Assembly (NCBI RefSeq): GCF_003402535.2
Contig: NZ_AP025172.1
Location: forward strand, 620,001 to 684,000
Length of the DNA stretch: 64,000 nucleotides
Source of the DNA: Cupriavidus sp. P-10
Lineage (GTDB): Bacteria; Pseudomonadota; Gammaproteobacteria; Burkholderiales; Burkholderiaceae
Direction: 5' to 3'
Each line of letters begins with the position of its first letter. The first letter of the stretch is position 1. Positions 58,626 to 64,000 of this stretch are shown here, piece after piece. Under the pieces are notes generated by a model. That model was not told where the DNA came from and ran no database searches. It worked only from the letters and a program-made list of their open reading frames with translations. The translations under genes were made by a program, and so were the position numbers.

Positions 58626-58784
58626 ATGGAACAACAAGCGTTCGATGTGGTAGTCGTCGGTGGCGGCCCAAGGGGCTACCAGGCTGCCCAGCGCGGCGCA
58701 CAACTTGGAATGAAAGTGGCTTACGTCGAGGAGCGGCCAAGGCTCGGCGGCACGTGCCGCAACGTCGGCTGCATTCCCTCTAAC
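58626..58784 (+). pseudogene. lpdA: Dihydrolipoamide dehydrogenase-like gene, 5-prime part
   Basis: Reads [20 protein letters not shown] with the FAD-binding motif VVVGGGPRG, then [13 protein letters not shown], the redox-active Cys pair region. The frame is cut inside CIPSK by an IS5-group element at 58785. Removing the element and one CTAA duplicate rejoins CIPS with KALLEPSERY at 63739 in frame. As it stands it stops at 58817 in element sequence and gives a 63-residue peptide. Confidence 0.85.
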
Positions 58785-58817
58785 AGGCTGCTGAAGTACT
58801 CACCGCCCAAGCGATGA

Positions 58818-58852
58818 GGCTCCCCCCGCAAGGCCGGGGGGCGCTATTTTTC
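58818..58852 (+). terminator. GC-rich hairpin with T-run inside the IS5 element
   Basis: CCCCCC / GGGGGG stem around GCAAGGCC, then CGCTATTTTT. It lies near the left end of the element and could stop transcription entering from lpd. Confidence 0.6.
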
Positions 58853-60180
58853 ACAATCCGGAAGCCGTGCGTCACTGCATCGACTTTTTCCGCGTTTTGG
58901 CGCCCATTTTCGGCCTCATTACCGCGTATATGAACGCGTCCCTTTGCAACAGTTTTCGTGTGTTCAAACTGACAGGATGGGTTGCAGCTGTATATTCGGC
59001 CTTGTTGCAGCCGCTACTGCCCGCTGCGGGCCCCTATGAAATCCGCGGACTCGCTCCTCATTGATTACACGAGCTCGAAGCTCTTGCGGTAATACAGGTT
59101 TTGCAAGTCCCAGGTCCTACCTGACTGTCATCACACTCGATTGCTGCGCAACCTTTCGACGTTCACCCTTGCGTTAGACGTTTATCTTCTACATCGAGCT
59201 AGCCATTCATGCCGGCTTCACGCTCACGTAGCCCTTCTGATACTGCCGGCCATGGGCCAGCACGGCCCAGATCGTCCGTGCCATTTTGTTGGCCAGCGCA
59301 ACGATCACAACATTGCGCGGGCGACGCTTGCTGATCTGCTCGACCCACGGTCCCGGCTCTTTCGCGTGCGTCAGCGCACTGCGTGCGCCGTGAATCAGTA
59401 ACGTGCGGAGGTATGTATCACCTCTCTTGCTGATGCCGTGTAAATCCACCTTGCCGCCCGAGCCGGTCTGCTTGGGCACCAAGCCTGCCCACGCCGCGAA
59501 TTCCCGACCCGAGCGGAATGCTTTCGGATCGCCCACATCGCGACCGCCGCCGTGGCCGTCAGCAGGCCCACGCCGGGAATCTCGCTGATTGCCTTTACGG
59601 CCTCGTCTTCCTTCTTCCACTCGCGCATACGGCGTTCGATCTCGGCCACCTGCTTGTCGAGCTCGGCCAACCCGTTCCACTGTTCGCGTAGCGTGTCTAC
59701 CAACGCACCAGGCAAGCGCTGTGCGAGTCGGCACAGAACTTCCGGTATCCCCTTGTCCAAGGCTGTACGTCCTTTGCTCATTACCTCACCGTACTCCGTC
59801 AGGAGTCCGCGCAGTCCGTTGATCTGCATCGTGCGGAACTTCACCAACTGCTCACGCATCCGGTGCAGCCCCAGCATTGCCTGCTGCATCTCCGTCTTCA
59901 CCGCTACGGGCTTGCCGGGTTGCTGCACAGCCAGCCAGATCGCCCGGGCATCCGCAGCGTCGGTCTTGTTCCCGATGTTGAACGCTTTGACGAACTCCGC
60001 AGGCATCAGTCTTACCTCGTGGCCCATCTTCATCAGTTGACGGGCCCAGTGGTGCGCTCCGCCACAAGCTTCCATTCCGATCAGGCACGGAGTACGATTC
60101 GTGAAGTACTCAAGGAACTTCGCCCGCTTGATCGGCTTGTTCACGATCTCGCCAGTTTCCTGATCGACGTAGTGCACTTG

Positions 60181-62376: not shown

Positions 62377-62549
62377 GAACACGTTCTTCGCGATGTCCAC
62401 ACCGACTGCTGTACGATTGACCACTGGATTCTCCGGTTGCCTGGGAAATGCCTCCATTTTCCACCCTTCGCACATCGAGGCCATAGGCCCGTGAGGATCC
62501 ACCTTTCTTTGCTCTCACATTCACGGGTGGGACGCGTTCATTTCATTGA

Positions 62550-63650
62550 TTACTGCAACTGCGGACGGATTTGTCCCAGCGAGCGCATGCGCACGAGGTT
62601 GTAGGCGGCCATGCTCAGCACAAACATTTGGTCGACCTTCTTTACTCCGCGCACCATTACCTGGCGCATGCGCCCCACGGTCTTCGCCCACCCAAAGCCC
62701 TGTTCGATGAGCTTGCGTTTCTGCTGCGAGATGGCATAACCGACGCTGCGAGCAATGGCATCAGGAACGGCCGAGCGCCGCCCCGAGGTGTTTTGCGCCA
62801 CGTGAGGCGTCACCTTCATCTCCAGGCAAGCCTCAATGAACTCCTGCGCGTCATAGCCCTTGTCCGCGCCCACGGTGACTTCCACATCCAGGTCTTCAGT
62901 CACCTGCCTGGCATCGTTGAGCATGACCTTTGCGGCCTCGCGCTCGGCGTGTCCGTCCGCATTGGTCACCATGGCGCTCACCACCAGGCCGTGGCGGTTG
63001 TCGCTCAGGGTATGGCCCATGTAGCGCAGTTCACTCGCAGTCTTGCCCTTGCGGTACAGCCTGGCATCGGGATCGGTCTTGGACTCGTGCGTGTCGTTGC
63101 TGCGCTTGCGACCTTTGAAGTTTCCGTCGTCGCTATCGTCCTTGTCGCCGCCGTCCTTGCGCACGAAGCTTTTGTGGCCTGCCCACGCCTGAATCAGCGT
63201 GCCGTCGACGCTGAAGTGCTCGCCCGACAGCCAGTTCTTCTTCTGCGCGATGGCCAGCACCTCGTTGAAAAACTCGATGACCGCATCATGCTTGATCAGC
63301 CGTTCGCGGTTCTTGGTGAACACCGTCGGCACCCAAACTGGGTCGTCCATCGACAGCCCGATGAACCAGCGAAAAAGCAAGTTGTAGTGCGTCTGCTCCA
63401 TGAGCTGACGTTCGGAGCGAATGCTGTAGAGCACCTGCAGCAGCATGGCCCGCAGCAATTTCTCCGGCGCGATGCTGGGCCGGCCACCCTTGATATCGGC
63501 CTCGTACATCTGCGCAAACAACCGGTCCATCTTCACCAGCGCCTGGTTGGCCATGGTGCGGACTGAGCGCAGCGGGTGGGACTTCGGCACGAAATCATCG
63601 AGCCTCCGCATAGTGAACAAACTCTCGGTGAAGGTGTCTGCGCCGCGCAT
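62550..63650 (-). CDS. IS5-group transposase
   Basis: A 366-residue DDE transposase, apparently intact: FVPKSHPLRSVRTMANQAL at the N-terminus, GEHFSVDGTLIQAWAGHKS with the first Asp, VTVGADKGYDAQEFIEACLE with the second and FGWAKTVGRMRQVMVRG for the Glu region (shifted in some IS5 enzymes). ATG at 63650 is preferred; TTG at 63677 is in frame. Its stop codon lies in the 10-bp repeat next to the IS110 insertion, so the enzyme is not shortened by it. Confidence 0.92.
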   Translation of the reverse strand: MRGADTFTESLFTMRRLDDFVPKSHPLRSVRTMANQALVKMDRLFAQMYEADIKGGRPSIAPEKLLRAMLLQVLYSIRSERQLMEQTHYNLLFRWFIGLSMDDPVWVPTVFTKNRERLIKHDAVIEFFNEVLAIAQKKNWLSGEHFSVDGTLIQAWAGHKSFVRKDGGDKDDSDDGNFKGRKRSNDTHESKTDPDARLYRKGKTASELRYMGHTLSDNRHGLVVSAMVTNADGHAEREAAKVMLNDARQVTEDLDVEVTVGADKGYDAQEFIEACLEMKVTPHVAQNTSGRRSAVPDAIARSVGYAISQQKRKLIEQGFGWAKTVGRMRQVMVRGVKKVDQMFVLSMAAYNLVRMRSLGQIRPQLQ

Positions 63651-63738
63651 GAAAGTAGGGTTGGATGGGGTCCTCAAATCAACGCTTTAGTTAGTCGTCG
63701 CGCTGACGTCCGCTCGAGGTATTTCAGCGGCCTGCTAA

Positions 63739-64000
63739 GGCCTTGCTGGAACCCAGCGAGCGTTATGCCGCTGCCCAGCACCAGTTCGGCGAGCACGGCA
63801 TCCTGTTCAAGGAACTGAGTGTCGACCTGCGTCGGCTGCTGGGGCACAAGGAATCTGTCGTCGATGATTTGGGCAAGGGAATTGACTACCTCTTCAAGAA
63901 GAACGGCGTGACGCGCCTGGTCTGTCGAGGCCGGCTGATCGATCCCCAAACGGTCGAGGTGGCGCTCAGCGGAAGGGCCGAGGTCCGCCGGGTGCAGGGC
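63739..64000 (+). pseudogene. lpdA: Dihydrolipoamide dehydrogenase-like gene, continuation beyond the insertions
   Basis: Reads KALLEPSERYAAAQHQFGEH, then GILFKELSVDLRRLLGHKES and GIDYLFKKNGVTRLVCRG, typical of lipoamide dehydrogenases just after the active-site CIPSK. It continues the fragment 58626-58784 in frame once the insertion is removed, and runs off the window end. Confidence 0.85.

Follow-up and report, generated by a model that had tools for sequence, protein, structure and literature searches.

Four nested layers in an lpd locus of Cupriavidus sp. P-10: an IS110 element and a group II intron very probably placed by their own RNAs

How do three mobile elements come to lie one inside another within a single gene, and is their arrangement more than an accident? 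The question is raised by a 64,000-nt stretch of Cupriavidus sp. P-10 (contig NZ_AP025172.1, positions 620,001 to 684,000; C3:620001-684000 in a genome of 9.08 Mb and five contigs), hereafter the window. Here lpd, the gene for dihydrolipoyl dehydrogenase, is interrupted by an IS5-family insertion sequence (58784-63734), which contains an IS110 element of the IS1111 type (58927-62547), which in turn contains a group II intron (60181-62376). The first-pass annotation of the window had proposed these four layers in this order of containment, and comparison with empty IS5 copies and an intron-less IS110 copy bore it out. The nest is real and well bounded and, judged by sequence, two of its three insertions are explained by predicted RNA guides carried in the insert. 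Each of the two inner layers carries a predicted RNA matching its own insertion spot, so that the nest looks guided, not accidental. As an explanation of the whole, we consider it very probable that the inner IS110 and intron layers were placed by their own RNAs. The component parts are of known kinds; the interest lies in the guided chain and in an intron lineage concentrated in IS110 active-site codons.

The borders of the IS110 element were fixed by copies that lack it. Two empty IS5 copies (L013 and L014) are continuous with the window to 58926 and resume at 62548, both reading ACCGCG/ATTAC (slashes mark junctions), and TATATG, at 58927 in the window, starts the element in an intron-less copy on a C. 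pinatubonensis plasmid (L009) and in nine relatives from other records. The first-pass annotation had taken CATTGATTAC as the repeat flanking IS110; the left border so drawn was wrong, the real one lying 142 bases outside it, while the other IS5 and IS110 ends did match the empty IS5 copies and L009. CATTGATTAC occurs exactly twice on the + strand of the window (59059 and 62544). It was rejected as a target duplication because of the empty IS5 copies, because its first copy is internal (132 bases inside IS110, in the predicted guide RNA) and because the same position in relatives tracks their own flank. Like other members of the IS1111 group, in which subterminal inverted repeats are 7-17 bp long, the element has such repeats of 13 bp, and its transposase matched PF01548 and PF02371, as a DEDD transposase of the IS110 type does. 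One transposase piece scored 192.4 and the other 116.7 against NF033542 (cut-off 140); in L009 the transposase is open. By record name the nearest known element is IS884 (IS110) of C. necator H16, with 79% DNA identity to this layer; the IS884 copy seen (L054) differs in having another target and no intron.

What does the internal copy of CATTGATTAC represent? Downstream of the transposase gene, 280 bases are conserved in relatives except, most clearly, for two short stretches flanking a small hairpin. A consensus fold of 11 sequences placed these stretches, the predicted guides, opposite each other in an internal loop that an outer stem closes, and 6 of its 25 pairs showed changes on both sides that keep the pair; the long right end with a target-matching RNA loop typical of IS1111 elements is thus present here as a 280-nt end with a predicted RNA. 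We examined the guides at 42 loci, 12 of which gave no parse; 31 rows were parsed and 8 dropped (one because its guide was short, four for lack of a readable 3' end and three as duplicates), leaving 23 elements. Guide 1 matched its own flank at 7.43 of 8 bases and the flanks of elements with other guides at 3.28 (23 elements), and guide 2 matched its own flank at 5.53 of 6 bases and foreign flanks at 2.45 (17 elements); for either guide, 0 of 20,000 permutations were as good. When one element was kept for each distinct guide 1, 10 of 15 matched their own flank strictly better than any other, again with 0 of 20,000 permutations as good. Because the stretches follow their own flanks and their geometry is as described for bridge RNAs, the 10-base repeat is best read as a putative guide and its target.

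The predicted target lies in the IS5-family element. The IS110 insertion site is two bases past the stop codon of the IS5 transposase, so that the IS5 gene and both IS5 ends stay whole. The exact guide pair was found in 2 of 398 family genomes, namely in the own copy within IS5 and in G034 (at the coordinates of the C. pinatubonensis plasmid of L009). When 60 genus genomes were searched, with about six best candidates each, IS5 was split at the IS110 site in 2 of the 40 genomes with a match, again the own genome and G034. A search of genome contigs for the junction pattern returned two stretches, the C. pinatubonensis plasmid and an Anaerolineaceae contig; the latter was taken as chance, as no IS110 end was seen by eye in its first 500 bases.

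The innermost layer is a mobile group II intron by its GUGYG 5' end, domain V, and an open reading frame with reverse transcriptase and maturase domains. Its ends are GTGCGACC and CTACCCGAC, and it is inserted in phase 0 between AACGTGTTC and CAAGTGCAC. In comparison with the intron-less IS110 copy on C. pinatubonensis plasmid p1, IS110 breaks at this same place, which confirmed the intron borders of the first-pass annotation. Its statement that removal of the intron restores the IS110 frame holds at the intron site, with a further frame change near 59536. A domain search of the 499-aa maturase found no endonuclease domain. The best solved match of the maturase is PDB 6me0 (574.6 bits), which we take to be TeI4h; the intron is thus probably close to CL-type TeI4h, a class assigned by this nearest solved relative only. 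The RF00029 match at its 3' end (Table 1) presumably corresponds to domains V-VI.

We surveyed intron copies in 60 Cupriavidus genomes, scoring up to five candidates in each, and read 20 copies in addition to the window copy and a second own-genome copy; a partial copy of 88% identity (G010:C194) lay outside the set read. Among the matches listed, 18 of the 20 readable copies with at least 84% identity occupy the F/Q codon boundary in D-[IVL]-A-K-x-x-[VI]-F/Q, the first catalytic motif of IS110 transposases. Three of these 18 show one exon only (L077, L118 and L120), and L077 and L118, halves at contig ends, may be one copy. Ten IS110 hosts share 41-73% protein identity with the window IS110, all seven of the 3' exons scanned were IS110 transposases above cut-off, and the nine stretches checked translate without stops. 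Outside the genus, the same IS110 place was occupied in 2 of 12 loci read (L196 and L199).

How might one intron lineage recognize this place in such diverged hosts? We compared 5- and 6-base windows in the first 600 intron bases with seven exon offsets in 15 copies with diverse sites, looking for exon-binding sites (EBS) that covary with the exon. For exon positions -6 to -1 the top window was intron 326-331, the predicted EBS1, with own pairing of 5.47 of 6 and an excess of 2.64 over foreign sites (next best 0.84). For exon positions -14 to -9 it was intron 261-266, the predicted EBS2 (5.07 of 6, excess 2.51, next best 0.66). In the window, predicted pairs thus join both EBS1 and EBS2 to their intron-binding sites (IBS1 and IBS2) in the exon. 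In the second own-genome copy EBS1 is GAAGAC and faces GTCTTT. At the third codon position opposite EBS1, all six copies with GAATAC have GTG, and ten of the 11 with GAAGAC have GTC or ATC (17 F/Q copies whose 5' exon could be read). Pairing with the IS110 site alone had first suggested an EBS1 at intron 385 (GGAGAT) or 193 (GAAGGC); the covariation scan with diverged introns rejected both. Around EBS1 (62042-62052, intron 325-335) and at scattered positions the window intron shares bases with L111 or L112, whereas elsewhere it resembles the GAAGAC lineage at 99% (98.9% identity to the other copies). On this pattern of bases the window intron looks mosaic, and its guide was perhaps swapped by conversion.

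Several observations weigh against placement by guide RNAs. For IS110, the covariation energy term of the RNA fold is small (-0.66 of -24.09 kcal/mol), and a foreign flank is equal or better for 5 of the 15 distinct guides; matches were accepted at register shifts of at most 3 bases (guide 1) or 1 base (guide 2), in the controls as well. A perfect 8-base match to guide 1 is present in only 10 of 20 distinct empty IS5 copies (32 loci viewed; 10 unparsed, 1 duplicate and 1 occupied), counts that bear on the guide-1 side only, since the parse required the ATTAC side. Targeting of IS5 thus rests on two IS5::IS110 insertions plus the guide match, and the window IS110 is itself frameshifted near 59536, where a sequencing error is possible. 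For the intron, the predicted fold of the 5' part has no advantage over shuffled sequence (z -0.63; 6 of 20 shuffles equalled or surpassed it), one copy (L104) has EBS1 GAAGAC against GTG, and 2 of the 20 copies of at least 84% identity lie off F/Q, namely L114, where no IS110 was seen, and L116, in another IS110-like motif (GLDVH/K). Two relatives of 78% identity (L117 and L119) also lie elsewhere.

The outer layers are of a more ordinary kind. The IS5-family element has the ends CAGGCTGCTGAA and TTCAGCGGCCTG, terminal inverted repeats, an IS5-type DDE transposase (NF033581) and a 4-bp target repeat; other copies have CTAA (L013 and L009) or CTAG (L014), and the target rule of IS5 is YTAR. 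Over 366 aa its transposase shares 94.8% identity with that of L009. The own genome has two uninterrupted copies, whose identity to the right piece is 92.5% and 91.1%, and ISRme1-like elements (named from the record; copy seen only in a listing) share 89% DNA identity with this layer. In another Cupriavidus genome (G020), an IS5 end (CAGGCTGCTGAAGTACTCA) adjoins an intron-bearing IS110 stretch on the 3' flank of L103.

As the first-pass annotation had claimed, CTAA flanks the IS5-group element (58780-58783 and 63735-63738) and lpd is continuous on its removal, the reading resuming at the second CTAA as ...KALLEPSE. Whether the halves might come from different genes was tested: a single 598-aa paralogue elsewhere in the genome matches both in order (residues 126-185 before the insert, 171-499 after), so that they belong to one gene. 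A second lesion, which escaped the first-pass annotation, lies in the C-terminal part beyond the window, where 50-56 residues are missing relative to the family model or the paralogue and the frame changes. By its sequence this lpd copy is a pseudogene for two reasons, the insert and the downstream lesion. Function need not rely on it, because the genome has three further matches above the TIGR01350 cut-off. The layers thus differ in state: the IS5 transposase and ends are intact, the intron reading frame is open with recognizable RNA parts, IS110 is frameshifted and lpd is broken twice. In G028 (L182) a C-terminal remnant of lpd directly adjoins the upstream gene, which is of DUF5666 type, and the match of a C. 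pauculus plasmid (L193) begins at the same lpd point; this arrangement is independent decay of the same lpd. Given this junction and the plasmid match, lpd seems expendable in this neighbourhood.

Table 1. Coordinates of the nested layers and their parts in the window.
Feature	Coordinates	Strand	Basis
lpd 5' part including left CTAA	58626..58783	+	TIGR01350 match 2-54 at C3:678641-678802; paralogue residues 126-185
Left CTAA target duplication of IS5-family element	58780..58783	.	Compared with other copies
IS5 left piece with terminal inverted repeat	58784..58926	.	Continuous with right piece in L013, L014
IS110 element, IS1111 type, 1425 bp without intron	58927..62547	-	Empty IS5 copies, L009, 9 related copies
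Non-coding end downstream of transposase, holding predicted bridge RNA (seekRNA)	58927..59206	-	Two variable stretches in conserved sequence; consensus fold
Subterminal inverted repeat ATGAACGCGTCCC, 3 bases from element end	58930..58942	+	Comparison of relatives
Target guide 2 (predicted), GTAATCAATG, identical to right IS5/IS110 junction; left border in first-pass annotation	59059..59068	-	
Target guide 1 (predicted), ATTACCGC, identical to 8 IS5 bases adjoining left IS110 border	59086..59093	-	
IS110 transposase exon 2, one frameshift near 59536	59207..60180	-	Two tblastn frames meeting at 59536; PF01548, PF02371
Mobile group II intron, 2196 bases	60181..62376	-	Rfam matches; intron-less copy comparison
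Intron 3' segment matching Rfam RF00029	60181..60257	-	58.4 bits
Intron reverse transcriptase/maturase, 499 aa	60267..61766	-	TIGR04416 361.9 bits, cut-off 300; RVT_N, RVT_1, GIIM; PDB 6me0 chain C 574.6 bits
Predicted EBS1 GAATAC, pairs with IBS1 GTGTTC (one G-U pair)	62046..62051	-	Top covarying window
Predicted EBS2 TCTTTG, pairs with CGAAGA at -14 to -9 (one G-U pair)	62111..62116	-	Covariation scan
Intron segment matching Rfam RF02012 (group-II-D1D4-7)	62169..62317	-	126.9 bits
IS110 transposase exon 1 (VVNRTAVGVDIAKNVF; start as annotated in L009)	62377..62424	-	
Subterminal inverted repeat, 6 bases from element end	62529..62541	-	Comparison of relatives
IS5 right piece with terminal inverted repeat	62548..63734	.	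One G at IS110 junction ambiguous
IS5 transposase, open throughout, 375 aa from TTG	62550..63677	-	NF033581 284.6 bits, cut-off 140
Right CTAA target duplication of IS5-family element	63735..63738	.	Sequence
lpd after insert, from own CTAA copy, running past window end	63735..64000	+	TIGR01350 matches 46-367, 418-461, different frames

We propose the following mechanism. A protein-targeted IS5-family element would have entered a dispensable, decaying lpd copy at CTAA, as the sequence there records. An IS1111-type IS110 element, with ATTACCGC and GTAATC as guides of its predicted bridge RNA, would then have entered the matching IS5 site past the transposase stop; the guide match is observed, and the RNA would function by analogy with the known mechanism. 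Finally, a group II intron of a lineage presumed to home on the DNA of the first catalytic motif of IS110 would have entered by EBS1/EBS2 pairing. Its position and pairing can be read directly, and splicing, if it occurs, would restore the reading frame at the intron site.

Does such a nest date its own history? The first-pass annotation had held that it dates the arrivals relative to one another, in the order IS5, IS110, intron. The dating was not supported: each layer could move with its contents, and the composite IS110::intron apparently moves whole. In principle IS110 could have carried the intron before it entered IS5, and IS5 could have carried both before it entered lpd. The order itself is favoured phylogenetically, for the elements among themselves but not for the entry into lpd. 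Of the relatives with fewer layers that had been proposed for comparison, C. pinatubonensis provided IS5::IS110 without the intron; one genus search for the lpd region found no relative with an intact lpd, or with lpd and an empty IS5, at the locus.

The phylogenetic evidence is as follows. In the C. pinatubonensis plasmid copy L009, IS5::IS110 without intron stands at another CTAA. Identity to the window is 98.2-99.1% for its IS110 but 92.6% (right piece) and 88.3% (left piece) for its IS5, the right piece being no closer to the window IS5 than an empty copy is. With IS110 at about 99% and IS5 at about 93% and 88%, the simplest account is that IS110 probably entered two diverged IS5 copies independently. 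The window intron is 98.9% identical to the second own-genome copy (L012), whose IS110 host is only 72% identical, which argues for recent intron homing. In two other Cupriavidus genomes, intron-bearing IS110 stretches at least 99.9% identical have different flanks (L109/L110 and L102/L103); one of the shared stretches stops within the element, and one exceeds the length that the element should have. By sequence these pairs appear to fit movement of the whole composite. Combined, the evidence favours a diverged IS5, then IS110, then the intron, in the phylogenetic sense. Because of independent IS110 entry, intron homing and apparent composite movement, the nesting is a record of containment and not of arrival dates.

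The alternative that survives best, though we consider it unlikely, is that a ready-made IS5::IS110::intron unit entered lpd in a single step. The IS5 ends are intact and its transposase is open, IS5::IS110 is present at another CTAA site in C. pinatubonensis, and other Cupriavidus genomes suggest that intron-bearing IS110 copies move as one piece; however, the C. pinatubonensis unit differs from that of the window in the identities given above and in having no intron, and no second copy of the unit was seen among about six best candidates per genome in 60 genus genomes. Much less probable is a chance pile-up, in which mobile elements hit other mobile elements in an unconstrained stretch. Since this lpd is decayed and a relative has a different truncation of it, insertions are evidently tolerated, but the guide matches and same-codon intron sites go far beyond shuffled or foreign-site controls, so that chance is disfavoured for the two inner layers and is a fair account of the outermost layer only. 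Hardly credible is the reading of CATTGATTAC, on the strength of its two occurrences, as the border repeat of an IS110 element starting from about 59059-59069 in a nest whose order dates arrivals in lpd, since IS5 homology with empty copies stops and resumes elsewhere, L009 and nine relatives start at 58927, relatives at other targets change the same internal position to fit their own flank, and the composite is apparently able to move whole. Placement of the inner layers by their own RNAs remains the preferred explanation.

Related systems are known for each guided step. The seekRNA of IS1111-group elements has reportedly been described by Siddiquee et al., and Partridge and Hall are said to have described in 2003 IS4321 and IS5075, IS1111 members that target terminal repeats of the Tn21 family. 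Like IS4321 and IS5075, the IS110 element of the window is an IS1111 element specialized on another mobile element; its target differs in lying within an IS5-family element behind the gene and not at a terminal repeat. In the excerpted text of Durrant et al. 2024 (PMC11208160), IS1111 elements have the bridge RNA in their right end, and its loop holds eight or nine target-matching bases on the 5' side and four to seven on the 3' side. Like the IS1111-group IS110 elements of that text, the window element has a DEDD-type transposase, a long non-coding right end, long subterminal inverted repeats and a loop of similar form (about 8 target-matching bases on the 5' side and 4-7 on the 3' side). Unlike the systems in that excerpt, its guide matches another insertion sequence just past the transposase stop, and the window copy carries an intron and a frameshift.

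Like the TeI4 introns of T. elongatus, which in the excerpted text of Mohr et al. 2010 (PMC2882425) fall into EBS/IBS families with different targets, the intron lineage described here differs in EBS1 from copy to copy. One TeI4 family of three introns lies at a conserved site in an IS200-type element, and Mohr et al. propose homing into other mobile elements as a route of proliferation (PMC2882425). Unlike TeI4 as presented in that excerpt, the host here is the active-site motif of the transposase across many diverged IS110 elements, and the host element is itself nested in another element.

Relatives of the intron are found in other places too. Among distant relatives (75-86% identity over matched parts), L065, L204, L194 and L010 lie at or near catalytic-motif codons of apparent transposases, which by motif we take to be IS5-like (L065 and L204), IS30-like (L194) and IS66-like (L010). 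These sites suggest possible retargeting among transposase families. Other relatives have no evident transposase at the site (L061-L063 of Rhizobium, L060, L064, L195 and L197). L197 (G096:C1:153684-156713), from a 2.8-Mb family member, is a full-length relative of the intron, immediately preceded by the 5' part of a further copy. L012 (C3:731792-735276 in the own genome), about 48 kb away, is a second IS110::intron, carrying matching bridge-RNA guides of its own; its EBS1 differs.

We tentatively suggest, as a possibility of somewhat less weight than its converse, that the intron clade is a guild of hitchhikers on transposons, re-aimed by EBS1/EBS2 at conserved codons in or near the active sites of several transposase families, in a chain of RNA-addressed parasites that spare the mobility of their hosts. 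If so, the sites in IS110 and, apparently, in IS5, IS66 and IS30 would be the most conserved DNA in fast-spreading genes. Apart from this suggestion, the nest makes Russian-doll insertions, otherwise a curiosity, the subject of a testable statement, that RNA can address the inner of nested elements to places that spare the host.

At this locus the predicted IS110 guide corresponds to a site in a different insertion sequence, and in 16 of 17 intron copies EBS1 (GAATAC or GAAGAC) varies with the codon opposite it. It also warns against taking every short repeat at the end of an IS110 for a border, since it may be a guide and its target, and against using the order of a nest as a clock. The 15 distinct bridge-RNA guides with their targets form a natural set. 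In G038, three copies of one IS110 type (L172, L174 and L175) have the same guide and occupy different sites, which resemble one another chiefly in the guided bases, giving a single bridge RNA several related natural targets.

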